Shown here in pieces: positions 141 to 42,201 of a stretch of 64,000 bases of DNA. Position 1 is the first letter of the stretch, and each line of letters begins with the position of its first letter. Source of the DNA: Actinopolymorpha singaporensis (GTDB lineage Bacteria; Actinomycetota; Actinomycetes; Propionibacteriales; Actinopolymorphaceae); the NCBI RefSeq assembly GCF_900104745.1, contig NZ_LT629732.1, forward strand, positions 1,674,001 through 1,738,000, written 5' to 3'. The position numbers and the translations under genes were made by a program. The notes under the pieces are model-generated. The model saw nothing but the letters and a program-made list of their open reading frames with translations, was not told the origin of the DNA and did not search any database.

Positions 141-185
141 TGGTGGGCAGGGGCGGGGTCGAACCGCCGACCTTCCGCTTTCAGG
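141..185. repeat. att copy 1 (tRNA-Phe 3' end), distal end of island
   Basis: This copy of the 3' part of tRNA-Phe matches the tRNA gene at 42156-42201 apart from one missing T in the T-run. It is the att copy farthest from the tRNA, so it marks the distal end of the stacked island. The sequence on its right resembles that right of att copy 5, with shared blocks near 215-237 and 260-287. Confidence 0.85.
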
Positions 186-608
186 TCGAGGGAGATCGCG
201 AACGGGGGTCTTCGCGCTCGTCATGATCTTGGTCGGGTGCGTCCTGACCGGCATCGAGCGGGTCTGTTGGCGTCACCGTTGGCGTCTGAGCCCGCGCCGA
301 TCCGATCAGCCGAGCCGGCCCTCGGCGAGACGGCTCCTCGAGGACGGTGAAGTCGGCGGGTGCGGCAACCCCCGTATTTGCCCAGCAATACGGGGCATAG
401 GTGTCGGCATGAATCGCGCCCCTGTTGTTCTGCACGTCTCCGCCGTGAGCTGCGCCCCCGACAGAGAAGACATCGCCTCCGGGCCGACGGAATACGCTCC
501 GGTCCGCTTGTCCTTCCCGCGATCGCCCCGTCCGGTGAAGCGTACGGCTGACCCACAGCGGGGCGGGTCAGCCGGCCGTCTCGGGGGTGCGCAGATCGGT
601 GGTGCTCG
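186..608. other. Non-coding or decayed stretch with arm-type repeats
   Basis: No convincing intact gene is visible. Positions 267-275 and 279-287 carry a TTGGCGTCA/TTGGCGTCT direct repeat with 12-bp spacing, also found inside the other ends of this element family. On the minus strand about 300-470 reads as protein-like sequence (GAIHADTYAPYCWANTG), which could be the end of a decayed secreted-protein gene. It has no supported start and runs into the arm region. Confidence 0.4.
267..287 (+). promoter_or_regulatory. Arm-type direct repeat, family 1 (right of att1)
   Basis: Two 9-mers, TTGGCGTCA and TTGGCGTCT, start 12 bp apart. The same arrangement occurs at 3224-3244, 15774-15794 and 42087-42107, always inside an element end. 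Tyrosine integrases commonly bind such paired arm sites; the role here is inferred. Confidence 0.5.
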
Positions 609-2015
609 GTGACGGCGGTCGACGCGAAGCCCTCGGGCGTTCGGCCGGTCCGCTGGCTTGGGCGATGGACGCCACGAGCGCTGTGGGCGCCGCGGGCGGG
701 CCGGCTGCGGATTTTGCTCATGCTGGTGCTGCTGGCCGCCGCGATGCCGCTGCGGATCCCGCTCCCTTGGCCGGTCGTCGGATCGGTCATCGGCTCGGTG
801 TCGATCCTCGATCTGCTGCTCCTCGTCGCTGCTGCCAGCCTCGTCCCGAACCTCCTGCGGCGGCGCCTCAACCTCGGCTACCGCACACTCGCGATGGCCC
901 TCGCGATCCCGCCACTGGTCGCCGCGCTGTCGCTGCTGTGGAGCCAGGACCGGGCCGAGTCGCTGCGCACCACGCTCATCTCTGTCGAGGCGTTCATCGC
1001 GTACCTGTTCATCACCCGCGAGCTCGAAGGGCTGTCCGCCGAGCGGGTCGTGGCATACCTCGGGCGGTATGCCTGGCTGGTGCTCGTGCCGGCCGTGCTC
1101 CTGATGCTGCACGTACCGGGCTTCGGGCCGTACGGATCCGACTACCACACCGGGTACGCCGTCTCCTACTACGCCCGGCTCTCCCACCCGGTGCTGGGTG
1201 GGTCGAACAATCTCGCCACCGTGCTCGCGATCCTCGTTCCGCCGCTGCTGTACTGGGGCCACAGCCGCCGAGACTGGCGCGCCACCCTGGCCGGTCTGAT
1301 CGCGGCAATGGGCGTCGTCTGCACTCTCTCGCGTGGTGTGCTCGCTGCATCGGTGATCGCGGGCGTCGGATACCTGGCCCTGCTTCCGATCAGTCGCCGA
1401 CCCTGGGCTCGGCGACGCCCGGTGCCCGGCAAGGTGCTCGGCAAAGTGCTCATCGGGACCTTGAGCCTCTCCGCCGGGGCGGTCGCGCTCTACAGGTTCA
1501 ACCCGCCGACGCATGAGTACATCAGCGGCCGCCTGTCGCCGGACAGCATCCTGAAGCGCGTCGAGTTGTACTCGGAGGCTTCCGAGAAGATCGGCGCACG
1601 CCCCTTCCTCGGGTACGGTGCGGGCGTCATCCCCTACGGCGACCCGGTGAACCCCGTCGACGTACACAACACGTATGTGCAGCAGGCGCTGTCGTTCGGG
1701 CTGCCGCTGGGCGTGATCGTCGGCGTCGCGATCGCCGGCCTTCCGCTCTTCTTCCTCCTGCGCCGCCGGGTGCATCCGCTGGCCGGGCCGCTCGGGTACG
1801 CGGTTCTGGTCGAGGTGGTGACGTTCGCGTTCGAGTCCAGCTACGAGGGCACCGTCCTGCGAGTCCTCTTCTATCTCCTCCTGGCTATGCTCGCCGGCCT
1901 GTTGCGAGCCGCCACGATTGAGAGCACGGCCACAAGGTCCGGCCCCGATGGGCGTAGCCGCTCAGCCCGAACGACGGCCCGCTCCCGGTCGGTGTCGGTC
2001 TTCCCCTCGGCATGA
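609..2015 (+). CDS. O-antigen ligase-like polytopic membrane protein
   Basis: The 468-aa product is a multi-spanning membrane protein with about ten hydrophobic segments. It resembles the O-antigen ligase / polymerase (WaaL/Wzy-like) superfamily. Near residues 330-355 it has the family's extracytoplasmic signature: a conserved Gly-Tyr-Gly-Ala-Gly followed by DVHNTYVQ. In actinomycetes such proteins are thought to act in surface glycan assembly at the membrane. The GTG start gives MTAVDAKPSG; a short basic N-terminus precedes the first helix. The last 30 residues are Ser/Arg-rich and atypical, so the 3' end may have been altered by integration. It is the only intact gene in this unit. The glycan substrate cannot be told from sequence. 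Confidence 0.8.
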   Translation: MTAVDAKPSGVRPVRWLGRWTPRALWAPRAGRLRILLMLVLLAAAMPLRIPLPWPVVGSVIGSVSILDLLLLVAAASLVPNLLRRRLNLGYRTLAMALAIPPLVAALSLLWSQDRAESLRTTLISVEAFIAYLFITRELEGLSAERVVAYLGRYAWLVLVPAVLLMLHVPGFGPYGSDYHTGYAVSYYARLSHPVLGGSNNLATVLAILVPPLLYWGHSRRDWRATLAGLIAAMGVVCTLSRGVLAASVIAGVGYLALLPISRRPWARRRPVPGKVLGKVLIGTLSLSAGAVALYRFNPPTHEYISGRLSPDSILKRVELYSEASEKIGARPFLGYGAGVIPYGDPVNPVDVHNTYVQQALSFGLPLGVIVGVAIAGLPLFFLLRRRVHPLAGPLGYAVLVEVVTFAFESSYEGTVLRVLFYLLLAMLAGLLRAATIESTATRSGPDGRSRSARTTARSRSVSVFPSA

Positions 2016-2086
2016 CCCAGTGAGTCACCCGGGGCCGGGCGCGGTCGAGCATCACGCCCGGCCCGTTCGACATCACCGGGAGCACT

Positions 2087-3208
2087 ATGGCTGCTCCCAC
2101 TGAGCTTGCGCCTAGCCGCAAGCGTCGCGCCAACGGCAACGGCACCCGTTTATCAGCGCAGCGACGGACGCTGGGTGGCGCGGGCGTACGTGCTCATGCC
2201 AGACGGCACGACTGCCAGGCGTGACTACTACGCCACCAGCGAGAAGGCCGCGAACCGCAAACTCGTTGAGGCGATGTCCAGGTCGCATCAGGGGATCCCG
2301 GCGGAGGCCACGGGCTGGACTGTCGAGCGGTTCCTGCTCTACTGGCTCGAACACGTCGTCCGGCCCGCGCGTAAGCCGAAGACCCATCAGGGCTATGGCG
2401 TCGTGGTGCGCGTGCACCTGATCCCGCAGCTGGGGCGGAAGAAGCTGCACCGGCTGACCGGTGTCGACGTCCGGCAGTTCCTGGCCAGGCTTCGCAACAC
2501 CTGTCTGTGCTGCCTGCACGGTGTCGACGGCCGACGGCCTGTGGGGGAGCGGAAGTGCTGCGCGATCGGACGGTGTTGTGAGCGGGTCCCGTCGGCCCGC
2601 TTGGTCCAGCAGGTGCACTCGGTATTGCGGAACGCGCTGCAGGCCGCCGTCGGGGAAGAACTGCCGGCGCGGAAGGTCGCGAAGCTCGTCCAGGTGTCCG
2701 CCCCCACGTATGAAGTGAACCGCGGAGTCGGCGTTGCCGAGGCGAGGGCCTGCTCGAGGTGCGCCCGGAGCCTGCAACGGGTCGACGGTCACCTCCAGGC
2801 GGTGACCCCAGGAGCAGAACCTCGCGACGGACGGTGCCGCTGGTCGGAGTCTGCGTCGACGCGCTGAAGGACCACCGGGAGCGGCAGGCCAGGGAACGGC
2901 AGCTCGCGGGGGAGACCTGGGTGGAGTCCGGGCACGTGTTCACAAGCAGGACCGGGACGCCGGTGGAGCCGGACAACCTGCGGCGCAGCTGGTACCCGAT
3001 CCGGGAGGCGGCCGGGCTGGACGCGGTCCGTTTCCACGACCTGCGGCACAGCTGCGTGACGTTGCTCCTGGAGCTCGGTACGCCGCCGCACATTGTCCGG
3101 GACATCGTGGGCCACTCCGACATCGACGTCACGATGACGATCTACGCGCACGCGTCGTTGGAGGAGAAGCGGGCAGCGCTGAGGAGGCTCGATGAGCGAC
3201 TCCAATAA
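2087..3208 (+). pseudogene. Tyrosine integrase pseudogene (paralogue of the AICE integrase)
   Basis: From the ATG at 2087 this aligns along its length with the intact integrase at 40836-42071, and both stop the same distance from an att copy. Three lesions are visible by comparison. One extra C lies near 2151 (ACC-C-GTT). A net deletion of about 119 nt after 2744 removes the segment coding GLRRGELLGLRW with the first catalytic Arg. One base is missing near 2810. The 3' part still reads FHDLRHS, GHSDIDVT and the Tyr-containing MTIYAH. The enzyme cannot be active. It marks unit 1 as a relative of the AICE. Confidence 0.9.
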
Positions 3209-3223
3209 CGCCCGCGGACGCTG

Positions 3224-3244
3224 TTGGCGTCAGCGCTGGCGTCA
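3224..3244 (+). promoter_or_regulatory. Arm-type direct repeat, family 1 (left of att2)
   Basis: TTGGCGTCA at 3224 and CTGGCGTCA at 3236 lie between the integrase pseudogene and att2. They are nearly identical to the pair left of the tRNA-Phe att core. The role as an integrase arm site is inferred. Confidence 0.55.
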
Positions 3245-3292
3245 TTCCGACCAGCGCGGGTTCACGTCGAAAGTGAATCCGCAGGTCAGAGG

Positions 3293-3338
3293 TGGTGGGC
3301 AGGGGCGGGGTCGAACCGCCGACCTTCCGCTTTTCAGG
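3293..3338. repeat. att copy 2 (tRNA-Phe 3' end)
   Basis: This is a 46-nt copy identical to the tRNA-Phe core at 42156-42201. The left flank is shared with the tRNA copy (integrase 3' flank). The right flank, beginning GGCCACGGACCCACGTTC, is shared with att3, so two different element ends meet here. Confidence 0.9.
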
Positions 3339-3432
3339 GCCACGGACCCACGTTCACCGGCCTCCGCCGGGGAACGTCTGCGCAGATCAAGCGCGATCGG
3401 CGACCGCCGCTGATCATCGGCGGACGTAAGCG

Positions 3433-3455
3433 AATGAGACCACGTCAAGGACCAG
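3433..3455. promoter_or_regulatory. Arm-type repeat, family 2 (right of att2), partly degenerate
   Basis: AATGAGACCA is followed after a short gap by a diverged second copy (AAGGACCAG). It aligns with the perfect pair right of att3 at 9391-9410. Confidence 0.45.
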
Positions 3456-3506
3456 GAGTCGACAATCCAAGCCATCGCGGCCGGGACAGGGTTGATCTTG
3501 GCGTCG

Positions 3507-3905
3507 TCATTCTGCCGCTGGACGATGGCGTGCTCGACTAATGGCCGGACGAAGCCATAGGTAGGTATGCGGGGCATCGCGTATCTGCCGCGCGTTGCCC
3601 AGTTCGCTGCGCGCGGGACCGCACTCCAGCTCGGACAGCTCGCCGGCGGTGATGTCGACTGAGACTTCCGGGCTCGTGCACCAGTCGATACGGAGCCGGA
3701 CGTGGTGGGTTCCCGGAGTCAACGTCACAGTGGTCGACTCGCCTCGTCGCACCCTTCCGACCTGGACCCCGTCGACCAGGATCCGATACGCGCGCCACTT
3801 GTCCCGCCACTTGGCGGGCTCGCGTGCCACGCGCAGCGCTCCGATCCCGCTGGGGGTGCCGTCGGCACGACCATCCTCCGAGCCACCTTGCAGCTGATCG
3901 TTCAC
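3507..3905 (-). CDS. Small beta-rich protein with PEGA-like repeat
   Basis: The 132-aa product has no signal peptide or membrane segment. Its centre (about residues 42-90) reads RILVDGVQVGRVRRGES, then TLTPGTHHVRLRIDW. This is the pattern of PEGA-type beta-sandwich modules: 'a value presented on the protein, then made to be held in the context of the cell'. The GTG start at 3905 overlaps the stop of the upstream membrane gene by 4 nt (GTGA), so the two are probably translationally coupled. It is the last gene of a three-gene operon running from 4940 to 3507. No enzymatic motif is visible; a structural or binding role is inferred only from fold-like patterns. Confidence 0.6.
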   Translation of the reverse strand: MNDQLQGGSEDGRADGTPSGIGALRVAREPAKWRDKWRAYRILVDGVQVGRVRRGESTTVTLTPGTHHVRLRIDWCTSPEVSVDITAGELSELECGPARSELGNARQIRDAPHTYLWLRPAISRARHRPAAE

Positions 3906-4365
3906 GGCTCTTCTCCTCGCTCACCGGAGGGCTCATCGGCACGACGGCGCGGTGACGATAGCGAACGGGTCTGGTCCCGCAGATGCGGGGGAACCACCCA
4001 ACGCGGCCGGTTGAACCAGATGACCGCGATCCCGGTCCACGCGCTCCCCGTCACGCCGACGAGCAACACCAGCAGCAGGACCGCGAATGCCTCTGGCGGC
4101 CGTTGGTGCGCCCCTTTCAGGTGGCTGGTCGCACGGAGCCCGCCCACCACCACGATCAGGATGCCAGCAGGTAGTGGAACACCGCGAAGGTCGGCATGCT
4201 CGCCTCGAACCCCGCCCGGAACCCGTCGGTAAACGGGACCCCTCGCGTCTGGTCGCCGGGGGCGATCTGCTGCCGCCAGCTCCGTACGCCGAGCCTGACC
4301 AGCGCGGTACCTGCCGTGAGGCAGTACGCCGCAGCCAGGCACACGACGACCATGGGTTGCCTCAC
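3902..4365 (-). pseudogene. Frameshifted small membrane protein gene
   Basis: The GTG start at 4365 overlaps the stop of the YcxB-like gene by 4 nt. The first frame reads a membrane segment (MVVVCLAAAYCLTAG) and ends in FAVFHYLLAS at 4156. A second frame continues with ILIVVVGGLRATS, another membrane segment (FAVLLLVLLVGVTGSAW) and an acidic/basic tail. It stops at 3902, exactly where the next gene starts with a 4-nt overlap. The two frames therefore make one protein broken by a single-base shift near 4165. This could be a true mutation or an assembly error. The intact protein would have about 150 aa and three membrane helices. The function is unknown. Confidence 0.65.
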
Positions 4366-4940
4366 CGCCTCGCCGGTCGGTGGCAGTGGGTTTCGAGCAA
4401 GGTCCGCAGCGGCGAGGGATCGCCCGCCGCCGGTAGCCCGCGCTTCGGTAGCACGAGTACCACGGCACCAGGCCGCTCGGACGCGCACAGAACAAACGAT
4501 CGTTCTGTCTCGACGACCTGCGGGTACTGGGACCATGCGGCTGTTTCGCTCCGACTGGCGCTGGTGAGACGTAACCCGACGTCATCGACGACGGCTCGAA
4601 TGGGCTCGGACAGACCGGGATTCCCGCTCATGATCAGGCGTGCCTGCCAGCGGTAGGGCCAGCGAGCGGCGACGAGGAGCCGGAACAGGAGCAAGCCGAG
4701 GCCGGTGGCGCCGAGCGCCACCGCGGCGAAGGCTGTGATGTCACCCGCCGAGATGGACCGAAAGCCGCCAGATGCGACGAGCCCATGGAGAATTCCGTCT
4801 AGTGCGGCGACGATTAGTACCGGGAGCAACCAGGGACGCCGGGCGCGGCGCCGATGGGCGAGGAAGCCGTCAAGCACGTCGTCCTCGGTGAGTGTGTAGC
4901 TGAGTTCGACCGGGCCCACGGTGACCTGCTCGGATGACAT
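4362..4940 (-). CDS. YcxB-like membrane protein
   Basis: The 192-aa product starts at ATG 4940 (MSSEQVTVGPVEL). After a short soluble N-terminus it has two hydrophobic segments (about residues 38-58 and 65-90). A cytoplasmic C-terminal domain follows, containing WSQYPQVVETERSFVL and a later FVL/VVLVLPKRGL stretch. A tandem membrane pair followed by a domain with W-x3-P/V-E-T-x2-F is the usual form of the YcxB-like family, whose function is unknown. It heads a three-gene operon in which each stop overlaps the next GTG start. Confidence 0.65.
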   Translation of the reverse strand: MSSEQVTVGPVELSYTLTEDDVLDGFLAHRRRARRPWLLPVLIVAALDGILHGLVASGGFRSISAGDITAFAAVALGATGLGLLLFRLLVAARWPYRWQARLIMSGNPGLSEPIRAVVDDVGLRLTSASRSETAAWSQYPQVVETERSFVLCASERPGAVVLVLPKRGLPAAGDPSPLRTLLETHCHRPARR

Positions 4941-5057
4941 GGGAGGGCAGTGTATTCACTACGCATGTCTGGCCGCGGCCATCGCGGCGGTCGGGGCCGC
5001 GTATGCCAGGATCTGCGCCACGACAGCGCGTCGGGGCTCGCTGTTGTTGTGGAGCTC

Positions 5058-5104
5058 ATTGGATGTAACTGCCAAAACGAGACTCGGGCGGCTTAAGCAG
5101 CACG
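5058..5104. repeat. Dispersed ~47-bp repeat, copy A
   Basis: The sequence ATTGGATGTAACTGCCAAAA and what follows, ending AAGCAGCACG, recurs in diverged form at 8976-9023 and 9541-9589. A shorter match is at 15465-15493. All copies lie in or at the edge of the integrase-less units. It is not coding as far as can be seen. Confidence 0.5.
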
Positions 5105-5188
5105 TCCATGCCACGCACCCTTCTGCTTGTCTCACGCGTCAACCCTGACGCGAGGGACCGTTGCACCCGAGGTCCGCGCGGTGCTGAG

Positions 5189-5545: not shown

Positions 5546-5692
5546 GGTCTCCCTTTCCGGGGACGCTGGGAGTTATCTGAGACGGCGCCTTCGCAGGTCG
5601 CGACGGCAGCGCCGTCGCACTCCGGGTGTCCGCTGAGGGGGACCCCACACCTTCGGCGGCGCGACCCCATATCCGTTGGACCTTCTGCAGTA

Positions 5693-11541: not shown

Positions 11542-11587
11542 TGGTGGGCAGGGGCGGGGTCGAACCGCCGACCTTCCGCTCTTCAGG
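11542..11587. repeat. att copy 4 (tRNA-Phe 3' end)
   Basis: This 46-nt copy has one substitution (CGCTCTTCAGG). The right flank (GGCCAAGCACCCACGT, then GCGTCTGCGCAGGTCAGCG) matches the att2/att3 right flanks for about 60 bp, then diverges before the TGAGACCA pair. Confidence 0.9.
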
Positions 11588-11671
11588 GCCAAGCACCCAC
11601 GTCCGCCGCCCACCGCCTGGATGCGTCTGCGCAGGTCAGCGTGGAGTCAACGGGGCGCTAGCGTGGGACAC

Positions 11672-11744
11672 GAGGGGTAGATCCCTTTCGGTGAGCAGGA
11701 CGGTTGGTCGCACTTCCATCCTGCCGTCGGGCGATCTACCCCTC
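11672..11744. repeat. Inverted repeat that can fold into a long hairpin
   Basis: GAGGGGTAGATC (11672-11683) and GATCTACCCCTC (11733-11744) are perfect 12-bp inverted copies. Inside them GCAGGACGG and CCATCCTGC can pair with one mismatch. No T-run follows, and no gene overlaps it. The remaining stretch to 12150 shows no recognisable gene. Confidence 0.5.
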
Positions 11745-12150
11745 CCTCACGCCCCGGCCACCGTCAACAACCTCATGAGCCGCAACATCTAGCCGCTCGT
11801 GTGCGGCTTGGGGGGGATTCGTCGCCGTAGAACAGGGGACGGCTGGACCACAGTTAGCGTCCTCGTGTCAGCCCGTCCACCCCCTCGCCACGAGCCCGGA
11901 TTTGCCTCGGTTCCGTGGCATGGCCTTTCTTCGCTTCGGGCACGTTTCCTGGCGAGAGCATCCTTTCATACGCGGATCGAGTTACGCCCGTATGTGTCGT
12001 GCTAATCGGGGGAGGGACATTGGAGAGGTCGCCTTTGAGTACGCGGAACGTGGATTGGCGTCATAGTGAATTCTCATCGAAGACGGTGTACGTCCCGCGC
12101 TTCTATCGCGGTAGCTGCAGGCGTGGGTTAGGTGCACTGGACCGATCGTG

Positions 12151-14259
12151 ATGGATTTGCATGGTCGTGCGTCCGTGTCCGGGTCCGGACGGTTGGCGGC
12201 GCCGGATGCTCACTCGGTGTCGCGGCTCGACATCCAAGGCTTGCGGGCGGTTGCCATCTTGTCGGTGCTCCTCTACCACATATTCCCTCGTCTGCTTCCG
12301 GGCGGCTTTCTTGGTGTGGACATCTTCTTCGTCATCTCCGGTTTCCTGATCACCGGAATTTTGACTCGTGAACTGCAGCGGACCGGGAGGATCCGGCTCG
12401 GACGGTTCTGGGCGCGCCGCGTCCGGCGCCTGTTGCCGATGGCGTCTTTGGTCACCGCACTGACCTTGGTCACGTCGATATTTGTGTACAGCCCACTACG
12501 CGTACCCGAGCTGGCTACTGACGCCCGCTGGGTGGCTTTGTATCTGCCGAACTACTGGTTCGCGGCGCGGCAAACCGACTACCTGGCCAACCAAGCACCA
12601 CCGTCACCGTTTCAGCACTTCTGGTCGCTCGCGGTTGAAGAGCAGTACTACTTCTGTTGGCCCATCCTCATGCTCGCAGCCGTCCTGGCAGCGACAAGGA
12701 TCCGATGCGCACCTGTCGCCAACCTCCGGCTACTCCTCCTCGGCTTGACCGCGATGATCACCGCCGTGTCGATGCTCGTGTCGTGGCAGCTGACCCAACC
12801 ACATCAGCCGTGGGCGTTCTTCGGCCTACCGGCCCGCGCCTGGGAACTCTCGGCAGGTGGACTGCTCGCCATCACCATGCAGAAACCGCCGCGACTGTCC
12901 CGTGCCGTCGCCACTGCGAGCGTCGGCGCCGGCATTGTCCTTCTGACTGGGTCATTGATCTGGTTCTCTGCTGACCTGGTGTTCCCAGGATTGTGGCCGG
13001 TGATTCCGATTGCCGGGACGCTCCTCCTGCTGTGGGCAGGCAACGCACCACGGGCCAAGCTGCTGCATGTTCTGACGGAGAACAAGTCGAGCGTGTATGT
13101 CGGCACCATCTCCTACTCGTTGTACTTGTGGCACTGGCCGGTGCTGATCTTGTCCCGGGCACGCTTCGGCTTCGACCACGAAGTTGCGCTTGGTGCCGGC
13201 TGTATCGCCGTCTCGCTTGCCTTGTCCTGCGTGTCCTACCGATTTCTGGAGAACCCCGTCCGCCAGTCCGCGAGGCTGCGGCGTGTGGTCTGGCCGAACT
13301 ACGCACTGCTGTTCGCCTCGACCACGACCGTGCTAGCAGCATGCACAGCGACCGCCAGCGTGTCGGCAACCCACGGCAGCGAGACCGTTCGACGACCCGA
13401 GAACAGTTCCGCACAGCCGCCCGGGCCAACCCCGCGCTCTGCCACGACGGTCTCTGCCAGCACCGTCCCCACCACGGTCCCTGCCACCACCCGGCCTAGC
13501 CTCGAGATCGCCAGGAAAGACCAGCCTGCTCTGGGCTTGTGTGGGGTCGCGTTTCATATCGCCACCCCACGTGTATGTCAGTACGGTGACCACAAGGCCT
13601 CCAAGTCGATGGTGCTGTTCGGTGACTCGCACGCAGCGCAGTGGTTCACTCCGATCAGCAGCTTTGCCCGGCAGCATGGCTACAAGATCTTCGTGATCCT
13701 CAAGTCGAGCTGCCCAGCCGCCAGTAACTACCGGTTTGTGAGCTACGCCGTGGGGCGGGAGTTCTACGAGTGCGAGTCCTGGGTGCGGCGATCAATTGGC
13801 CAGATCAACCATCTTCGGCCCGACATCATCGTCGTGAGCAACGCCACTCTTGGCTACACCGAGCCGATCGGCGGTCATTACCCCGACGCGTGGCACGACG
13901 GCCTCAGCCGAACCTTCGCCGCGCTCCCATCGGCCACCAAGAAGATTCTCATACTCGACACCCCGCGCTTCTTCGAGACCCCGCCCACGGAATGCCTGGC
14001 CGCACACTTGAACGATCCTGCTTCCTGTGGTGTCGACGTCACCAAAACGATCAGCCAAGGTGCGCGGTCTGCCGAGAAGGCCGCGGCGGAAGCGCATCAG
14101 GTCAACGTCGTGGACCCTGTCCCGTGGCTGTGCACCAAGACCTGCTACGGGATCGTTGGCGACATCATCATGTACGCCGACTCGAACCACATGACCAACA
14201 CCTTCGCCAGCACGCTGTCACGGCGACTCGCCGTCCAACTCGGAAACTTGCTCCGTTAA
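12151..14259 (+). CDS. OafA/YrhL-type membrane acyltransferase with C-terminal SGNH domain
   Basis: The roughly 702-aa two-part protein is of the OafA type. The N-terminal acyltransferase-3 part (about residues 18-400) has some ten membrane helices and the motifs LDIQGLRAVAILSVLLYH (catalytic His) and FFVISGFLITGIL; FWSLAVEEQYYF follows. After a Ser/Thr/Pro-rich linker (about 415-455) comes an extracytoplasmic SGNH-hydrolase-like part. It has VLFGDSHAAQWF as block I and a late DSNHMT with the Asp/His pair. Such enzymes O-acylate surface glycans, cell-wall sugars or exported metabolites. A GTG lies one codon upstream of the chosen ATG; neither has a clear ribosome-binding site. It stands alone on the plus strand. 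Confidence 0.92.
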   Translation: MDLHGRASVSGSGRLAAPDAHSVSRLDIQGLRAVAILSVLLYHIFPRLLPGGFLGVDIFFVISGFLITGILTRELQRTGRIRLGRFWARRVRRLLPMASLVTALTLVTSIFVYSPLRVPELATDARWVALYLPNYWFAARQTDYLANQAPPSPFQHFWSLAVEEQYYFCWPILMLAAVLAATRIRCAPVANLRLLLLGLTAMITAVSMLVSWQLTQPHQPWAFFGLPARAWELSAGGLLAITMQKPPRLSRAVATASVGAGIVLLTGSLIWFSADLVFPGLWPVIPIAGTLLLLWAGNAPRAKLLHVLTENKSSVYVGTISYSLYLWHWPVLILSRARFGFDHEVALGAGCIAVSLALSCVSYRFLENPVRQSARLRRVVWPNYALLFASTTTVLAACTATASVSATHGSETVRRPENSSAQPPGPTPRSATTVSASTVPTTVPATTRPSLEIARKDQPALGLCGVAFHIATPRVCQYGDHKASKSMVLFGDSHAAQWFTPISSFARQHGYKIFVILKSSCPAASNYRFVSYAVGREFYECESWVRRSIGQINHLRPDIIVVSNATLGYTEPIGGHYPDAWHDGLSRTFAALPSATKKILILDTPRFFETPPTECLAAHLNDPASCGVDVTKTISQGARSAEKAAAEAHQVNVVDPVPWLCTKTCYGIVGDIIMYADSNHMTNTFASTLSRRLAVQLGNLLR

Positions 14260-14399
14260 CATTACGACTGGTCCCTGAAAGTCGATGAAATAGCACTTGT
14301 CGTACGAGATTATGCCCGGAGCTTGGCTACCTCTCGTCTGTCAGAATGCCTCACCGTCGGTTCGAGATCGCCACAATTGCGGCGGCCCGGGCGTTGCGG

Positions 14400-14684
14400 T
14401 CGACGCGACGGAGCGAGAGTCGAATACAACACCGGGTCGGGCTGGAAGGTCGCGTCCGTACTGCCCAACGTCAACGGTGAGGACACTCCAGCCGGAGAGC
14501 GCATCGGGCAGAGAGGTTCGGCGGTGAGTCCCACGGATTCGGCGGCACGAGATACGACCTGTCCAGGCTGGCCGGCAAGGCGGTGAGGCTCCGCTTCCAC
14601 ATCAAGAAGGTCGACGGGGATCCGGAGACAGCCGAGGAATCCAGCTGGTATGTCGACATCCTCAAGATCGACACGTGCATCTGA
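14400..14684 (+). pseudogene. Decayed 3' end of a secreted protein gene
   Basis: One frame reads RVEYNTGSGWKVASVLPNVNG. After a shift another reads FGGTRYDLSRLAGKAVRLRF and ends with SSWYVDILKIDTCI and a stop at 14684. This is the pattern of a beta-sandwich C-terminal module found in large secreted actinomycete proteins ('D-L-S-x-L-A-G-K-x-V-R-L-R-F'). At least one frameshift lies near 14520 and the 5' part of the gene is absent. Confidence 0.5.
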
Positions 14685-14710
14685 GACGGACCCGTGGTGC
14701 CAACGCGTCG

Positions 14711-15340
14711 TTAGATGTGCCTGACGTCTTCTGACTCTGCACTGTTCGCAGGTTCGACGCGCGTCAGGCAGGTGGCGTCGTTCCAGATGTAGACAACCTC
14801 GTCGAGAAGCACACCTGAGTCGTCGAAGTGTCGCTGGCCGAGCAGGGTGCCGCCGATTCTTTCGTAGAAGGCGCGGGCGGGTGCGTTGACGGCGAGTACA
14901 CCGATCGCCAGTCTCCGTCGTCCTCGCGAGACGAGGAACGTGGCCAGGTCTGCGAGCAGCGCCCGTCCGATCCCGCTGCGCTGTCGAGTGGTGTGCACAT
15001 ACAGCGAGTAGCATTCGCCGGTCGGGTGGGCGGCACGGTTCGCGTCGTCGAAGGGCCAGTCTGCCGGCGGCCCGCCCATGGCGATGCCGACGATCTCGCC
15101 GGCCGTGTCCTCGGCGACGCAGACGTACTCTTGCGGATCTTCGGCCGCTGCGATCTCGCGTAACGTCCGCTCCCACCCCTGGGTGGATGACTCGTACGTG
15201 CGCTCCAGCAGAAGATGTTCGGGGATCTGGCCACGGTGGGCGGTGCGGAACGTGTCGACGAACACCCGAGCCATCGCCGGAGCATCTGCCAAGGTCGCTG
15301 CTCGGACCTTGAACCCGCGACGCTCGCGCGCCTCACCCAT
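14711..15340 (-). CDS. GNAT-family N-acetyltransferase
   Basis: The about 209-aa soluble protein begins MGEARERRGFKVRAATLAD. It has the GNAT fold markers: VRAATLADAPAMARVFVD at the N-terminus, a central strand YVCVAEDTAGEIVGIAMGG, and the acetyl-CoA pyrophosphate-binding motif RQRSGIGRALLADLA with Q/R-x-x-G-x-G. Then come VLAVNAPARAFYERIGG and a C-terminal tail. The substrate is not predictable. In-frame starts exist upstream (GTG at 15355, ATG at 15445); the ATG at 15340 gives a normal family length. It is the last gene of its unit and transcribes away from att5. Confidence 0.85.
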   Translation of the reverse strand: MGEARERRGFKVRAATLADAPAMARVFVDTFRTAHRGQIPEHLLLERTYESSTQGWERTLREIAAAEDPQEYVCVAEDTAGEIVGIAMGGPPADWPFDDANRAAHPTGECYSLYVHTTRQRSGIGRALLADLATFLVSRGRRRLAIGVLAVNAPARAFYERIGGTLLGQRHFDDSGVLLDEVVYIWNDATCLTRVEPANSAESEDVRHI

Positions 15341-15464
15341 CCGGTCGTCCGTCACAAGATCACATGATGGTCCGCAGACGCCCAGGCCGTCATCGAAACG
15401 GATCAACTCTTCCGGACCGCGACGCTTAGGTGTCGTGCCATGCATCTGCGCCGGTGCGCGGACG

Positions 15465-15493
15465 CATTGGACGCAATGGCCAGAACCCCTGGG
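15465..15493. repeat. Dispersed repeat, short copy D
   Basis: ATTGGACGCAATGGCCAGAA resembles the core of the dispersed repeat at 5058, 8976 and 9541. It sits just left of the conserved end block before att5. Confidence 0.35.
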
Positions 15494-15504
15494 CCGACCG
15501 TCCG

Positions 15505-15644
15505 CTTCCGAAGCGGAGCCTCACAGGCCGCTTACCAGGCGCGATGCCGCCGCTGGTCTCAGTTCCCGGGCCCGCTGGTCTCAGTTAGAACGGCTCCCGA
15601 CAGACGTCTGCCGGGAGCCACTGAGTCGCTGACCTGGGGGATTG
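15505..15644. repeat. Conserved left-end block of family 2 units (before att5)
   Basis: This is the third copy of the 140-bp block. CTGGTCTCAG occurs at 15553-15562 and 15575-15584, 22 bp apart. A near-perfect hairpin lies at 15592-15619 around the palindrome CAGACGTCTG. Confidence 0.8.
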
Positions 15645-15690
15645 TGGTGGGCAGGGGCGGGGTCGAACCGCCGACCTTCCGCTTTTCAGG
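15645..15690. repeat. att copy 5 (left end of the intact AICE)
   Basis: This 46-nt copy is identical to the tRNA-Phe core. Left flank is the family 2 block; right flank resembles that of att1 (shared CGCTCGTCATGATCTTGGTC and TTGGCGTCA repeats). It is the inferred attL of the 26.5-kb element. Confidence 0.92.
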
Positions 15691-34987: not shown

Positions 34988-35003
34988 ACCCCAGGTCACA
35001 GCT

Positions 35004-35099: not shown

Positions 35100-35101
35100 A
35101 A

Positions 35102-35123
35102 AGCGGCCCCCGAAGGGGCCGCT
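35102..35123 (+). terminator. Strong hairpin after the first backbone gene
   Basis: AGCGGCCCC, the loop CGAA and GGGGCCGCT form a perfect 9-bp GC stem (35102-35123). A second inverted repeat, GAGACCCGGAA / TTCCGGGTCTC (35138-35148 / 35165-35175), follows directly. No long T-run follows. The pair could be an attenuator or RNA-processing site that lets the first gene be expressed more than the transfer genes (inference). Confidence 0.45.
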
Positions 35124-35210
35124 CCCCAAAGACGGCGGAGACCCGGAACTTGGTCTGGAGAACCTTCCGGGTCTCTGCCTTCCACTCACCCTTGCTAGGA
35201 GGGCTGTGGC

Positions 35211-37648: not shown

Positions 37649-37890
37649 CCACGTACAAGCATGAGGCCGCGGCTATCCAGCTTCCTTACGAGGATCTGGC
37701 CGAACTTGCCCGCCGTATCGAGGCGCAGCGCCTGACCAGCTGGGACTACGCCTACGGCTACGTCGACCCAGGCGGCCCGACCGAGAAACAGATCCAGGCA
37801 CACAAAGACGCAGCCGGGCAGGTCGCCGAATGGCTGATCCGCCACGGCTACGACTACCTCCGGGCTCACGCCGAGAAGAAGCGGCCATGA
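37645..37890 (+). CDS. AICE small hypothetical protein
   Basis: The 81-aa soluble protein (MTTYKHEAAAIQLPYEDLAE) is mostly helical, with AAGQVAEWLIRHGYDYLRAH near the end. It overlaps the translocase stop by 4 nt and the next gene start by 4 nt, so it is part of the transfer operon. No known motif. Confidence 0.65.
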   Translation: MTTYKHEAAAIQLPYEDLAELARRIEAQRLTSWDYAYGYVDPGGPTEKQIQAHKDAAGQVAEWLIRHGYDYLRAHAEKKRP

Positions 37891-38351
37891 GCATCTACAA
37901 CGGACCCCGCAACGGCGGGCGCCGGCGGGCTCGTCGACGTCCTGGTGCTCGTCGACGTCGACGACTCGACACCCGCTTCTACGACCCGACCGGCGCCAGC
38001 CACGGCGGCACACCCACCTACCCGTGGCGGATGGCACCCGACGGGCTCGCCACCAGGCGGCAGCTGCTCGCTCTCGAGCTCCGACCGGGCGGCCAGCCCA
38101 TCGCGGCGCAGATCCTGTGGATCCGTCGCGGGAAGCCGGCTGTGGCCTACCTGTACCGGGTCGAGCAGGCGAAGCCGAAGCGCATCCCGTCGCTGGCGCA
38201 GCTGCACGCCATCGAGAAGGCCCTCGCGGCACGACGGGTCTGTCCCGACTGCGGCAGGGACGTCGGTTACACGATCCCGACGTCGCTGGGCTGCTGCGTC
38301 GACTGCCACCAGGCCCACCAGGCCGCTTCGGGCAGCAGGGCAGCGGCATGA
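37887..38351 (+). CDS. RRQRL-motif zinc-ribbon protein of AICE
   Basis: The 154-aa product starts at ATG 37887 (4-nt overlap). The first about 30 residues are highly basic (RRRARRRPGARRRRRLDTRF). A conserved block TRRQLLALELRPGGQ (about 54-68) corresponds to the RRQRL motif that names the family. Residues about 115-145 carry a Cys4 zinc ribbon: CPDCG and CCVDC. A nucleic-acid-binding role is likely. It is a regular member of AICE backbones between translocase and Rep. Confidence 0.75.
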   Translation: MSIYNGPRNGGRRRARRRPGARRRRRLDTRFYDPTGASHGGTPTYPWRMAPDGLATRRQLLALELRPGGQPIAAQILWIRRGKPAVAYLYRVEQAKPKRIPSLAQLHAIEKALAARRVCPDCGRDVGYTIPTSLGCCVDCHQAHQAASGSRAAA

Positions 38352-38629
38352 CTACGGGCGACAACGGCGCCGGCCGGGAACAGGCATACGCACAAAGGTT
38401 CAAGGCCCGGCTGATCCAGCGGGGCTATGACCGCGACACCGAGCAGGGCAACGCCTACACCCTCGGCGTCCTGCACTACATCCTCACCTCCGCCAAGGCC
38501 GCCCCGACGGTCGACCTGATGCGGGCGGAGGTCGACAAGGGCCTCGACGTCCTGGCTGCACTCGACGAGCTCACCGACCACCAAGACACCAACACGACGA
38601 AGACGAAGAAGGGAGGTGGCAGGCCATGA
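38348..38629 (+). CDS. AICE small hypothetical protein
   Basis: The 93-aa protein begins MTTGDNGAGREQAYAQRFKA. Its core is helical (LIQRGYDRDTEQGNAYTLGV; DLMRAEVDKGLDVLAALDEL) and its C-terminus is Thr/Lys-rich. It overlaps both neighbours by 4 nt. The function is unknown; by position it belongs to the replication part of the operon. Confidence 0.6.
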   Translation: MTTGDNGAGREQAYAQRFKARLIQRGYDRDTEQGNAYTLGVLHYILTSAKAAPTVDLMRAEVDKGLDVLAALDELTDHQDTNTTKTKKGGGRP

Positions 38630-38862
38630 CCGTGCGCTCGTACCAGGTGTGGGGCGCGGCGTGTGACTCCTGCGACGCCGAGTTCGAAACCAGCCACAAT
38701 GAGCTGCCCTGCGACCGCGAAGACCTCGCCGACTTCGGCTGGGCCGTCGACGGAGACAACGCCCTCTGCCCCGCCTGCGCCGCCAGGGAGGGCACCCGAC
38801 CCGAAGACCGCAAAATCACCCACCTCGCCGACAGGCGCAACAGCGCTGGACGGCGCGGGTGA
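38626..38862 (+). CDS. Small CxxC zinc-ribbon-like protein
   Basis: The 78-aa protein starts MTVRSYQVWGAACDSCDAEF. Two Cys pairs (CDSC near residue 14, CPAC near 52) suggest a small zinc-binding module. It overlaps the Rep start by 4 nt. No further family assignment. Confidence 0.6.
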   Translation: MTVRSYQVWGAACDSCDAEFETSHNELPCDREDLADFGWAVDGDNALCPACAAREGTRPEDRKITHLADRRNSAGRRG

Positions 38863-40616
38863 CCGACTCGACGACGACCATCACCCCCGACACCACACCC
38901 ACGGTGCCGGGGGCGGTGGCCGCTGCCGAGAACACCACCACCACCACCACCACCACCAACCGAGGTATCCCGTGGCTGGCCGACTACGACGAATGGCTCG
39001 CCGGCCGGGCGGAGCTCGTCGACGACCAGGACCGCTTCGCCACCCATTCGGCGATGCGACGGGCCACCCGCGACGACTACGGCCGCTGGCTGTCCCACGT
39101 ACACTCCGCTGCTGGCTGCACCAACCCCGTCCGTCTTGCCGGGAAGTTCCGTACCGCGACCGTCAACACCACCACCGGCGAGGTCACCGGCGAGGGCCTG
39201 GCACGTGCGACAGCTGACATGCCGGACGGGGTGATCTACAAGGCCTGCGGCAACCGCAGGGCGAGCGTGTGCCCGTCGTGTTCGGAGATCTACCGGGCCG
39301 ACGCCTATCAGCTCGTGCTCGCCGGAATGCGCGGCGGCAAAGGCGTGCCCGAGACCGTGTCCGGGCATCCGGCGGTGTTCGCCACCGTCACCGCCCCCGG
39401 CTTCGGCATCGTCCACACCACCCGCACCAGCAAGAAGGGCCAGCCCGCACCCTGCCGGGCCCGCCGGACACCGGACCTGTGCCCGCACGGTGTCGACATG
39501 CGATGCATGACACGACATGGCGACGGGGACGAGCGGCTCGGCCGGCCCCTGTGCCCGGACTGCTACGACTACGACCACCACGCCGTTTGGAACGGCCTGG
39601 TCGGCGAACTGTGGCGCCGCACCACCATGAAAGCCAACCGCGAACTCGGCAAGTGGGCCCGTCGCCACGGCTTGGCTGAGCGGGTCGTGAACCCGAAGAC
39701 GGGCAAGGTCACCTCGAAGGTGCCGGTGCGGATCTCGTTCGGGAAGGTCGCGGAGTTCCAGCGCCGCGGCCTGGTCCACTTCCACATCCTCGCCCGCTTC
39801 GACGGTATCCACCCCCTCGACCCCGACCAGGTAGTCGCGCCACCGGAGTGGGCGACCGTCTTCCTCCTGAGATGGATCCTCGAACACGCCGTCGCCGACA
39901 CCACCTGGCGAACACCGCCCCTCGTCGTCCACGGCCGCCACGGACGCCTCCTCGTCGACAAGCCCGACGGCTGGCTCCTGGCGTGGGGCGAACAGGTCGA
40001 CGTCCGCCCCGTCCGCCTACGGGGTGAGGACCAGCTCACCGGTGAACGGGTCGTCGACGAGCTCGACCACGCCGACGGGGCCAGCCAGACCGACAAGCAC
40101 GGGCGCCGGCGGCTCCTGTCCGGCCCGGCTGTGGCCGGATACCTCGCCAAGTACGCCACGAAAGCGACCGAGGCGACCGGGCACACCTCCCGCAAGATCA
40201 CCGACGAGACGGTCGACTTCTACGCCAACGACACCCACCCCGGCCGCATCATCGAGGCCTGCTGGCGGCTCAGCCAGAAAGGCCGACAACCAGCGCAGGA
40301 GTGGCGCGACAGCTGGTACTACGCGCTACGCAGATGGGCGCACATGCTCGGCTACGGCGGCCACTTCTTCTCCAAATCCCGCCGCTACTCCACCACCTTC
40401 AAACGCCTCCGCCAAGCCCGCATCGACTACCGCAGGGCCCACCACCAAACGTCGGATCACCTCGAGGAAAACGAGGTCCTGGAAGTCATCGGCGAACTCG
40501 TCTACGCCGGCACCGGCTGGCACACCACCGGCGACGCCATGCTCGCCAACACCGCCGCCGCCATGGCCCGCGAACAACGCCAAACTGCACGACTTGAGAT
40601 CGCAACATCAGGTTGA
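38859..40616 (+). CDS. RepSA-like replication initiator
   Basis: The 585-aa product starts at GTG 38859. After a Thr-rich stretch (eight Thr near residue 30) it contains RDDYGRWLSHVHSAAGCTNPV and the Cys region CGNRRASVCPSCSEIYRADA (about 128-147). Then comes the HUH-type metal-binding motif RRGLVHFHILARFDG (about 302-316). A Tyr-containing VAGYLAKYATKATE (about 426-439) is a candidate nicking site. RepSA proteins start rolling-circle replication of excised AICEs. It is followed by excisionase and integrase, the usual AICE order. Confidence 0.9.
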   Translation: MTDSTTTITPDTTPTVPGAVAAAENTTTTTTTTNRGIPWLADYDEWLAGRAELVDDQDRFATHSAMRRATRDDYGRWLSHVHSAAGCTNPVRLAGKFRTATVNTTTGEVTGEGLARATADMPDGVIYKACGNRRASVCPSCSEIYRADAYQLVLAGMRGGKGVPETVSGHPAVFATVTAPGFGIVHTTRTSKKGQPAPCRARRTPDLCPHGVDMRCMTRHGDGDERLGRPLCPDCYDYDHHAVWNGLVGELWRRTTMKANRELGKWARRHGLAERVVNPKTGKVTSKVPVRISFGKVAEFQRRGLVHFHILARFDGIHPLDPDQVVAPPEWATVFLLRWILEHAVADTTWRTPPLVVHGRHGRLLVDKPDGWLLAWGEQVDVRPVRLRGEDQLTGERVVDELDHADGASQTDKHGRRRLLSGPAVAGYLAKYATKATEATGHTSRKITDETVDFYANDTHPGRIIEACWRLSQKGRQPAQEWRDSWYYALRRWAHMLGYGGHFFSKSRRYSTTFKRLRQARIDYRRAHHQTSDHLEENEVLEVIGELVYAGTGWHTTGDAMLANTAAAMAREQRQTARLEIATSG

Positions 40617-40653
40617 CACCACAATTCCCCAGCAAGGAAGGAGAAAACGCCGC

Positions 40654-40839
40654 ATGGAACAGCTACTTCTGACGACGGCAGAGGCCGCGGAACGTCTCCG
40701 CATCGGCAAGAGCACCTTGTACGACCTGATCAGGTCCCGGCGCCTGCGGACGGTGAAGATCGGCAAGCGCCGGCTCGTGCCCGTCGACGCGCTGCCCGAG
40801 GTTATCGCCCGCCTGGTCGAGGAGGAGTCGGCGGCATGA
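40654..40839 (+). CDS. xis: Excisionase (MerR-like helix-turn-helix)
   Basis: The 61-aa DNA-binding protein starts MEQLLLTTAEAAERLRIGKS, followed by TLYDLIRSRRLRTVKIGKRR, the helix-turn-helix of excisionase-type (HTH_17) proteins. It bends DNA at the att region and favours excision by the integrase. AAGGAAGGAG lies 8-10 nt upstream. The stop overlaps the integrase start by 4 nt (ATGA), the usual xis-int coupling. Confidence 0.9.
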   Translation: MEQLLLTTAEAAERLRIGKSTLYDLIRSRRLRTVKIGKRRLVPVDALPEVIARLVEEESAA

Positions 40840-42071
40840 CGGAGCGGCAGCGGGAAAGCCGCAAGCGTCGCGCCAACGGCAACGGCACCGTCTACCAGCG
40901 CAGCGACGGGCGCTGGGTGGCGCGGGCGTACGTCCTCATGCCAGACGGCACCACTGTCCGGCGTGATTACTACGCCACCAACGAGAAGGCAGCAAACCGC
41001 AAACTCGTCGAGGCGATGTCCAGGTCACATCAGGGGATCCCAGCCGAGGCCACGGGCTGGACTGTCGAGCGGTTCCTGCTCTACTGGCTCGAACACGTCG
41101 TCCGGCCAGCGCGTAAGCCCAAGACACATCAGGGCTATGGCGTCGTGGTGCGCGTGCACCTGATCCCACAGCTGGGGCGGAAGAAGCTCCACCTGCTCAC
41201 TGGTGTCGACGTCCGGCAGTTCCTGGCCAGGCTCCGCAGCACCTGCCTATGCTGCCTGCACGGCGTCGACGGCCGGCGACCTGAGGGCGAGCGGAAGTGC
41301 TGCGCGATCGGACGGTGTTGCGAGCGGGTTCCGTCGGACCGCCTGGTCCAGCAGGTGCACTCGGTGCTGCGGAACGCGCTGCAGGCCGCCGTCCGAGAGG
41401 AGCTGTTGGCGCGGAACGTCGCGAAGCTCGTCCAAGTCTCCGCTCCCACGTACGAGGTGAACCGCGGCGTCGGTGTCGCCGAGGCGAGAAGGTTGCGGGC
41501 CGTCGTCGAACATGACCGGTTCTACGCGCTGTACGTTCTAGCGCTGTACGTCGGGCTGCGCCGCGGCGAGCTGCTCGGGCTCCGCTGGGAGGACCTCGAC
41601 CTCGACGCCGGGCTACTCGAAGTTCGTCGAAGCCTGCAACGGGTCGACGGTCAGCTCCAGGCAGTGACACCCAAAACCAGAACGTCGCGGCGGACCGTGC
41701 CGCTGGTCGGGGTCTGCGTCGACGCGCTGAAGGATCACCGGGAGCGGCAGGGCAGAGAGCGGCAGCTGGCCGGCACGGCGTGGGTGGACTCCGGGCACGT
41801 GTTCACAAGCAGGACCGGGACGCCGGTGGAGCCGGACAACCTGCGGCGCAGCTGGTATCCGATCCGAGAGGCGGCCGGGCTGAACGGGGTCCGCTTCCAC
41901 GACCTGCGGCACAGCTGCGTGACCTTGCTCCTGGAACTCGGCACGCCCCCGCACATCGTCCGGGACATCGTTGGGCACTCCGACATCGACGTCACGATGA
42001 CCATCTACGCGCACGCGTCATTGGAGGAGAAGCGAGCAGCGCTCAGGAGGCTCGATGAGCGACTCCAGTAA
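40836..42071 (+). CDS. int: Tyrosine site-specific integrase of the AICE
   Basis: The 411-aa tyrosine recombinase has an N-terminal arm-binding part with RRANGNGTVYQRSDGRWVAR and a core-binding part. The catalytic domain has Arg in YVGLRRGELLGLRWEDLD (about 238-255), FHDLRHSCVTLLLELG (His-x-x-Arg about 354-357) and the nucleophile Tyr in GHSDIDVTMTIYAHAS (about 389). It integrates and excises the element at tRNA-Phe, whose 3' end lies 84 bp downstream. A Cys-rich insert (CLCCLHGVDGRRPEGERKCC) sits in the core-binding part. The pseudogene at 2087-3208 is a close copy. All catalytic residues are present, so it is probably active. Confidence 0.95.
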   Translation: MTERQRESRKRRANGNGTVYQRSDGRWVARAYVLMPDGTTVRRDYYATNEKAANRKLVEAMSRSHQGIPAEATGWTVERFLLYWLEHVVRPARKPKTHQGYGVVVRVHLIPQLGRKKLHLLTGVDVRQFLARLRSTCLCCLHGVDGRRPEGERKCCAIGRCCERVPSDRLVQQVHSVLRNALQAAVREELLARNVAKLVQVSAPTYEVNRGVGVAEARRLRAVVEHDRFYALYVLALYVGLRRGELLGLRWEDLDLDAGLLEVRRSLQRVDGQLQAVTPKTRTSRRTVPLVGVCVDALKDHRERQGRERQLAGTAWVDSGHVFTSRTGTPVEPDNLRRSWYPIREAAGLNGVRFHDLRHSCVTLLLELGTPPHIVRDIVGHSDIDVTMTIYAHASLEEKRAALRRLDERLQ

Positions 42072-42086
42072 GGCCGGCGGACGCTG

Positions 42087-42107
42087 TTGGCGTCAGCGCT
42101 GGCGTCA
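42087..42107 (+). promoter_or_regulatory. Arm-type direct repeat, family 1 (left of tRNA-Phe core)
   Basis: TTGGCGTCA at 42087-42095 and CTGGCGTCA at 42099-42107 start 12 bp apart between the integrase stop and the att core. This is the best-preserved of the four pairs. Confidence 0.6.
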
Positions 42108-42155
42108 TTCCGGCCAGCGCGGATTCACGTCGAAGGTGAACCCGCAGGTCAGAGG

Positions 42156-42201
42156 TGGTGGGCAGGGGCGGGGTCGAACCGCCGACCTTCCGCTTTTCAG
42201 G
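42156..42201. repeat. att copy 6, inside the tRNA-Phe gene
   Basis: The 46-nt core runs from the CCA end into the anticodon loop of tRNA-Phe. It is the source copy for the five repeats farther left. Integration here leaves the tRNA intact because the element brings its own 3' part. Confidence 0.92.

Follow-up and report, generated by a model that had tools for sequence, protein, structure and literature searches.

Integrase-less units with their own arm-type repeats share a tRNA-Phe attachment core with integrase-bearing elements in Actinopolymorpha

The tRNA-Phe gene of Actinopolymorpha singaporensis borders a tandem array of elements that share a single attachment core and carry different sets of arm-type repeats. 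The array was studied in a stretch of 64,000 nucleotides (the window, G000:C1:1674001-1738000) from the complete 6.4-Mb chromosome of this species, and compared with five further genomes grouped with Actinopolymorpha (G001, A. alba; G002; G003, A. pittospori; G004, A. rutila; G005), which together with the source genome, G000, form the genus set. The presence of two arm specificities over one tRNA-Phe core is well supported by the neighbourhood in which the arm words are found. Three integrase-less units of the array (units 2-4) and their relatives are, on balance, probably non-autonomous cassettes that are moved in trans by a tRNA-Phe integrase from a clade with GAGACC-containing arm words. 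The ends of these units differ from those of the neighbouring integrase-bearing element, and the machinery that moves them is therefore probably supplied from elsewhere.

A core scan detected six copies of the 46-bp tRNA-Phe att core in the window, all pointing the same way, and a seventh lies 3.8 kb to the left of it. The copies within the window bound unit 0, which lies partly outside, and units 1-5 (Table 1). Units 1 and 5, which have an integrase gene, feature TTGGCGTCA pairs with a spacing of 12 bp at both ends (A-type ends); every pair combines an exact copy with one that has a single mismatch. The integrase-less units 2, 3 and 4 carry GGTCTCA pairs at the right end, spaced by 22 bp and with CGGTCTCA as the first member in two of the three, and the left-end TGAGACCA pair is exact in unit 3 and has a decayed second copy in unit 2 (B-type ends). 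A left arm pair was looked for in unit 4 (11542-15645), and none is present. An earlier sequence-only reading had proposed two families of arm repeats at one shared core, and this is borne out for the A and B word sets; the B pairs lie at fixed distances from the core, and the reversed controls of their patterns gave no matches. The positions it assigned to the arms hold to within 1-2 bp, and the paired ends it described for integrase-less units are found everywhere except at the left end of unit 4. Its count of two families is too low, as a third arm word, TTGATGTCA, forms pairs at tRNA-Phe cores of A. alba and A. pittospori (L077; L073, 18782; L074, 6590).

The enrichment of single arm words above chance is moderate, and it is the pairs and their position that carry the case. 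In the window, TGGTCTCA is seen 7 times versus 1.9 expected (one of 100 shuffles reaches 7), and TTGGCGTCA 6 times versus 0.5 expected (none of 100 shuffles), with two of the six TTGGCGTCA copies (12055 and 54899) away from any unit end. The B right-end pattern has 14 matches in four of the six genus genomes (three in G000, one in G001, three in G002, seven in G004, none in G003 or G005), and the same pattern reversed has none in any of the six. G003 and G005 escape the exact pattern and have B right ends with other spacing or a changed core base; B ends are present in all six genomes. Across the order, TGAGACCANNNNTGAGACCA matches 19 of 391 genomes, six of which are the genus, and its backwards control matches none of the 391. 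In an unbiased 8-mer search around 29 genus cores, TGAGACCA was present in 16 of 23 right flanks (rank 3 of 66) and TGGTCTCA in 16 of 29 left flanks (rank 10 of 160), the p-values being too favourable owing to the homology of the ends. For the A words, the ranks in the left flanks were only 143 and 144 of 160 (5 of 29), and they were not among the 8-mers listed for the right flanks.

The position of the B pairs relative to the core is nearly constant. In ends located via their arms, the left pair starts 140-142 bp past the core start (15 ends) and the right pair lies 90-92 bp ahead of the core start (17 ends). When ends were picked by other motifs, two exact GGTCTCA copies were present in 15 of 21 right ends, with two more containing one mismatch, and two exact TGAGACCA copies in 12 of 16 left ends, with one more containing one mismatch. 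The homology of the left ends stops at the arms, conservation being 0.98 in the arms, 0.83 on the core side and 0.41 on the cargo side (n=19). A similar contrast at the right ends (0.99 versus 0.76) was initially considered strong support, but those ends had been selected by their arms, and other selectors give a weaker contrast.

Across the six genomes, 19 B segments extending from a B left pair to a B right pair were listed by hand, excluding unit 4 of the window; in three of them the left word is decayed or single. The largest number noted in one array is in A. rutila, where ten segments at tRNA-Phe extend from a B left to a B right pair, one of the ten with a single left word. Both attL and attR are kept in most segments, with cores and arm pairs at both ends. 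None of the 19 segments has an integrase match when queried with 13 A-, T-, Ser- or phage-type integrases, and no integrase or transfer family was detected among the B-unit proteins scanned against Pfam, which were selected proteins and not every gene. The segments span a median of about 3.6 kb (range about 0.9-11 kb, including 170 bp of end). The cargo families identified in the same selected proteins include a hydrolase with an ECF sigma factor and DoxX, PGA_cap, acyltransferase-SGNH and GNAT proteins, a Zn-dehydrogenase, aldo-keto reductases, an FAD-binding protein with PadR and NmrA, an FGE-sulfatase, MASE1, FG-GAP and MEDS sensors, HTH-AAA-TPR, an APH-type kinase and RibD_C; fused stretches of A. 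rutila contributed NUDIX and MFS with TetR, and several scanned proteins matched no Pfam family. The tRNA-proximal unit, which by the usual logic is the youngest, is of B type in G002, G003 and G004, and of A type in G000 and G005; in G001 it belongs to the TTGATGTCA kind.

Two further features were observed. A RibD-type cassette is present twice in A. pittospori (L074 and L076; 98% identical over 1.5 kb), once at tRNA-Phe and once at 0.92 Mb. Close to their right end, six units contain one more TGAGACCA-type pair (in joined-region coordinates, 59494, 64010 and 67638 in G004, 29422 and 35415 in G002, and C12 43632 in G005), and in the four of these that have a right pair, the extra pair lies 188-191 bp inward of it.

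Array stretches of at least 1 kb were compared among G000, G002, G004 and G005, setting aside those of A elements and those to the left of the arrays; flank identity refers to aligned parts of the tRNA-side flank. Thirteen such stretches are shared, and nine are 94.6-97.9% identical, versus 88.0-91.6% for the flanks: 97.9% (2844 bp) and 97.9% (1190 bp) between G000 and G004 (flank 90.8%), 97.3, 94.6 and 97.6% between G000 and G005 (flank 88.0%), 97.4, 97.4 and 96.8% between G004 and G005 (flank 90.8%) and 97.5% between G004 and G002 (flank 91.6%). The A-type element of G000, by comparison, is 88.3% identical to that of G005, close to the flank value. For the more distant G001, the identity of array stretches is 91.5% with G005 (flank 77.5%) and 92-93% with G003 (flank 76.2%). 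Cassette order also differs, running dehydrogenase, hydrolase, PGA_cap, GNAT in G000 and PGA_cap, dehydrogenase, GNAT, hydrolase in G005, where contigs C12 and C14 were joined as one array by inference. Three shared stretches start within 62 bp of the left pair (twice in G004-G005 and once in G004-G002). The hydrolase stretch of G000 starts 1.5 kb inside, and that unit is therefore probably a fusion.

Each arm word can be linked to integrases through its neighbourhood. The A pair starts 15-18 bp 3' of the stop codon of the A integrases in G000 (units 1 and 5), G003 and G005, and in a genome of the sister genus, G006, GGTTGGCGTCACGGTTGGCGTCA comes after an A integrase located next to tRNA-Phe; all four intact A-type integrases seen (G000, G003, G005 and G006) have the A pair behind the stop codon. 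The resident integrase of unit 5 would accordingly be assigned to a separate TTGGCGTCA system and not to the B ends.

The B left-end word leads to a different clade. Of 391 genomes of the order, 19 contain TGAGACCA-N4-TGAGACCA, and 13 of these lie outside the genus. In Actinopolymorpha, an element at tRNA-Thr is also flanked by this pair, which lies behind the stop codon of a 434-amino-acid tRNA-Thr integrase in G000 and G003 (93% identical genes, each adjoined by a TGAGACCACAACTGAGACCA pair) and behind a fragment of this gene in G004. Outside the genus, the stretch around the pair contains a tRNA-Ser gene in 9 of 13 genomes; L134 and L146 have apparent tRNA-Ser fragments and L138 and L139 have neither. 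Four integrases of the clade were recovered there, one missing its first residues, and TGAGACGG and TGAGACTA pairs accompany two more members, both at tRNA-Ser. A hand count in one tRNA-Thr and one tRNA-Ser element places the left pair 97 bp from the crossover, and the B left end agrees with this, having the same word in a pair 95 bp past the 46-bp core. The N-terminal domains of the tRNA-Thr integrase and the tRNA-Ser members are more alike (44-64% identity) than their catalytic parts (38-42%), with differing targets, which is in keeping with trans mobilisation by a member of this clade; N-terminal identity to the A integrases and those of phages Giles and Fionnbharth is 26-33%. Judging from these neighbours, TGAGACCA-N4-TGAGACCA is presumed to be the arm site of this clade and the N-terminal domain its arm-binding part. 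In G000, the tRNA-Thr gene is itself the site of a second tandem locus (G000:C1:2048774-2068936), with an TGAGACCA-type integrase and three exact pairs.

In the mechanism proposed here, each cassette end would be a full attachment end, the left consisting of the core, about 95 bp and TGAGACCA-N4-TGAGACCA, and the right of GGTCTCA-N15-GGTCTCA, a hairpin and the core. The attP of a circularised cassette would then contain two arm pairs, inverted relative to each other, on either side of the tRNA-Phe core. A helper tyrosine integrase from the GAGACC-arm clade that recognises the tRNA-Phe core could insert such circles in trans at the tRNA gene, and repeated insertion would generate a tandem array. 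The anatomy of the ends, the lack of integrase matches in B segments, the exchange between species and the company kept by each word are observations, whereas the helper, the circular intermediates and the assignment of proteins to words are inferred.

Several observations weigh against this mechanism, and the chief weakness is the absence of the helper from the six genomes and from the pattern searches. No tRNA-Phe GAGACC integrase was found in the genus set, and with the tRNA-Thr integrase as query, only A types were detected at tRNA-Phe in these six and two sister-genus genomes. The sequence-only reading had suggested two recombinases with a common target; the two specificities stand, with the A pair accompanying A integrases and the TGAGACCA pair accompanying the tRNA-Thr/Ser clade, while a second recombinase at tRNA-Phe was not detected in these eight genomes. 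No integrase-bearing element with both B ends was found in the genus genomes or in the contig, viral and class searches. The left-end pattern had no matches in viral contigs and none in a class sample of 394, which is without a positive control because the G000 copy itself has a mutated core. The clade's right pair, direct, spaced by 12 bp and 3' of an integrase gene, has no counterpart in B units, where the right pair is inverted, spaced by 22 bp and without an integrase; the match to the clade is therefore good only at the left end. In an ungapped register, the arms are conserved only modestly above their surroundings (0.71 versus 0.67 on the right, 0.79 versus 0.68 on the left). Four of the 13 shared stretches have lower identities (92.8, 91.2, 89.6 and 77.0%), and G000 and G005 are 98.2% identical over 621 bp to the left of the array; high identity is thus not confined to cassettes. 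Finally, several units are decayed or fused, as expected of relics.

Other searches added no candidate. The right-end pattern was found in 11 stretches of genome contigs (7 from Actinopolymorpha and 4 from others) and 6 of viral contigs; the ten non-Actinopolymorpha matches were judged by eye to be chance, five of the viral contigs sharing one tRNA-less stretch. Two of these ten are at tRNA-like sequence (L161, a phage contig with 31 tRNA genes and 44% G+C, and L125, a Myxococcales metagenome-assembled genome). Comparison of the B right end with plasmids gave four records that match almost only the tRNA core and cover at most 27% of the query. PF00589 has 11 matches in G000 and 77 in G001-G005, only part of which became loci. 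At 12 of 12 other integrase loci of the genus, including C5 of G005 at tRNA-Thr(TGT) and L103, which has no tRNA, there is no GAGACC pair 3' of the stop codon. A third recombinase, with scores of 105-113 bits, is present in all six genomes; in the two sequences inspected it looks Xer-like and without an arm-binding domain.

The most serious alternative, though an unlikely one, is that the B units are cis-mobilizable elements (CIMEs), relics of one or more autonomous B elements that have lost the integrase and would move only by accretion, by co-excision with an adjacent A element via the outer cores, or by homologous recombination. Arrays of this kind have precedents: 15 islands without an integration module are described at ssrA in Dehalococcoides (PMC3146451) and CIMEs are described in tandem in streptococci (PMC5704250), and in both, as here, islands are stacked at one tRNA or tmRNA gene with integrase-less and integrase-bearing members mixed. 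The Dehalococcoides islands differ in having serine recombinases (PMC3146451). The B units share the retained attL and attR and the lack of an integrase match with CIMEs, and fused and decayed junctions are present in the arrays. However, CIMEs are described as products of decay in which the ends of an integrase-bearing element survive, whereas the arm words of the B class, their orientation and their spacing are peculiar to it. Many B ends are also intact, yet not one of the 19 segments retains an integrase match, and single cassettes are common to several species in differing neighbourhoods. In addition, the B unit is tRNA-proximal in G002, G003 and G004, and carriage in cis by A elements therefore does not easily explain the arrays. 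In behaviour, the system resembles a trans-mobilised cassette array; by membership, CIME arrays are nearest.

It is improbable that the resident tRNA-Thr integrase moves the B cassettes, even though its arm word and the B word are the same and the gene is intact in G000 and, in the 93% identical form, in G003, with the TGAGACCACAACTGAGACCA pair beside both. Its core is tRNA-Thr, which differs from tRNA-Phe at anticodon-loop bases, where identity is needed for recombination. With this integrase as query, G002 and G005 have no close relative and G001 and G004 have fragments only, yet all four have B ends. The best match in G002 (1e-7) is weak compared with those of the A integrases (1e-20 or better in the same search), and G002 therefore seemingly has neither an A nor a GAGACC-type integrase, although it has B cassettes.

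The same genome is difficult to reconcile with the still less probable suggestion that the A integrase serves both kinds of end, with the B words as accessories. The common core and array would be consistent with this, as would units in G003 and G004 that combine a B left end with an A right end. Such mixed units were considered as evidence for one integrase using both ends, but this was rejected for G003, where the unit is a fusion because a decayed core and an A left pair lie inside it; the A pair behind all four intact A integrases seen likewise speaks against it. The conserved block of the B right end, with its hairpin and pseudo-core, would fit repeats of a regulatory or structural nature that have no part in recombination, but this is hardly credible, given the fixed position relative to the core on both sides and the presence of the left-end pair beside integrase genes in other elements.

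Among characterized attachment sites, the putative attP of the B cassettes resembles, in architecture only, that of mycobacteriophage CrimD (cluster K1), which also has two mutually inverted arm pairs around the core and a hairpin between the core and one of them (PMC3203893). In its sequence, a GTTGATG pair is 11 bp apart and an ATCAAC pair 12 bp apart. Unlike the B units, which do not contain the K1 word, CrimD has a tmRNA target, another arm word and an integrase in cis. Alignment of the CrimD integrase with that of tRNA-Thr is confined to the part outside the N-terminal domain (27-32%), and its score against the A integrase is higher; a relationship between the tRNA-Thr integrase and K1 phages was therefore dropped and the architecture alone compared, and trans mobilisation does not depend on it. 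The integrase of mycobacteriophage Fionnbharth, relatives of which target tmRNA, is 36.8% identical to the tRNA-Thr integrase over 98% and has arm-like pairs 12 bp apart on both sides, but unlike in the B units its word is TTGGGTACA, the pairs are direct and the integrase is in cis. The best viral match of the tRNA-Thr integrase is an unannotated phage contig (40.6%). The A ends are similar to the attP of mycobacteriophage Giles (target presumably tRNA-Pro), with direct, 12-bp-spaced TTGGGGTCA pairs 221 bp apart; the Giles integrase, 34.8% identical to that of unit 5, is among 20 listed phage matches, all at 34.8%.

In its working, the array is reminiscent of integrons, as recombinase-less cargo cassettes accumulate at one site in an order that differs between strains, although B ends are tRNA cores with arm pairs and not attC sites. 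A more tentative proposal, possible but short of probable, is a trans-mobilised integron-like system with dedicated cassettes, an attP class of its own and a recombinase never in cis, in which the helper would keep one arm code and its relatives would switch to other tRNA targets. The open PMC literature yielded no account of the cassettes, most subscription journals being outside its coverage. If trans mobilisation is correct, small metabolic and surface-modifying genes would pass between species as bare cassettes needing just two ends, and a common arm code would decide which integrase can move them. The clade would also provide a natural test of modular integrase design, the arm domain and word being kept with targets at tRNA-Thr, tRNA-Ser and, presumably, tRNA-Phe. 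The order of integrase stop codon, arm pair and core may serve as a practical rule for assigning an integrase to an orphan island.

Table 1. Features of the tRNA-Phe array, in window positions; bracketed numbers are the starts of the two pair members
Feature	Start	End	Strand	Basis or remark
Intact tRNA-Phe gene; 3' part is the core common to all units (core start 42156)	42156	42232	-	ARAGORN, core scan
att core copy, unit 0/unit 1 boundary, one base missing	141	185	+	core scan
att core copy, unit 1/unit 2 boundary	3293	3338	+	core scan
att core copy, unit 2/unit 3 boundary	9250	9295	+	core scan
att core copy, unit 3/unit 4 boundary	11542	11587	+	core scan
att core copy, unit 4/unit 5 boundary	15645	15690	+	core scan
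A-type arm pair, left end of unit 1 (267/279)	267	287	+	
Broken A-type integrase of unit 1, two frames	2106	3208	+	pieces 77 and 86% identical to unit 5 integrase
A-type arm pair, right end of unit 1 (3224/3236)	3224	3244	+	
B unit 2: alpha/beta hydrolase, ECF sigma factor, DoxX-like	3293	9249	.	Pfam
B-type left pair of unit 2, second copy decayed (3435/3447)	3435	3454	+	
B-type right pair of unit 2, inverted versus left pairs, 22 bp (9159/9181)	9159	9188	+	
Hairpin, right pair to core, unit 2	9197	9224	+	fold z -5.5
B unit 3: PGA_cap capsule-synthesis-type protein	9250	11541	.	Pfam
B-type left pair of unit 3, TGAGACCA-N4-TGAGACCA, 12 bp (9391/9403)	9391	9410	+	
B-type right pair of unit 3 (11451/11473)	11451	11480	+	
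B unit 4: acyltransferase-SGNH protein, GNAT acetyltransferase; no left arm pair	11542	15644	.	Pfam
Pseudo-core TCCGC-TTCCGAA-GCGGA in B right end of unit 4	15501	15517	+	tRNA site: TCCGC-TTTTCAG-GCGGA
B-type right pair of unit 4 (15554/15576)	15554	15583	+	
Hairpin, right pair to core, unit 4	15592	15619	+	fold z -3.1
A unit 5: 26.5-kb integrase-bearing element adjoining tRNA	15645	42155	.	
A-type arm pair, left end of unit 5 (15774/15786)	15774	15794	+	
A-type tyrosine integrase of unit 5, 411 amino acids	40836	42071	+	Pfam PF00589 and PF14659
A-type arm pair, right end of unit 5, about 15 bp past integrase stop (42087/42099)	42087	42107	+	

In addition to its broken integrase, unit 1 contains an O-antigen-ligase-like Wzy_C gene (609-2015). 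The conserved block at the B right end is about 200 bp long and consists, in order, of the pseudo-core, GCTGACCAGGCACGATGCCG, the GGTCTCA pair, the hairpin, GCTGACCTGGGGGAATG and the core; CAGGTCAGC is common to left and right ends, in inverted orientation. The pseudo-core, found in many B right ends, has the tRNA half-sites TCCGC and GCGGA around another heptamer, TTCCGAA, and the fold of this stretch is not significant (z -1.7). A repeat roughly 160 bp long, which contains GTGCAATCCACGTGCAAC or a close variant of it and ends in the tRNA-Phe core, is scattered in G001, G003 and G004 (L082, L083, L085, L080, L081, L049, L059 and L063); the right flanks all differ, and the repeat is perhaps an element integrated at secondary sites.

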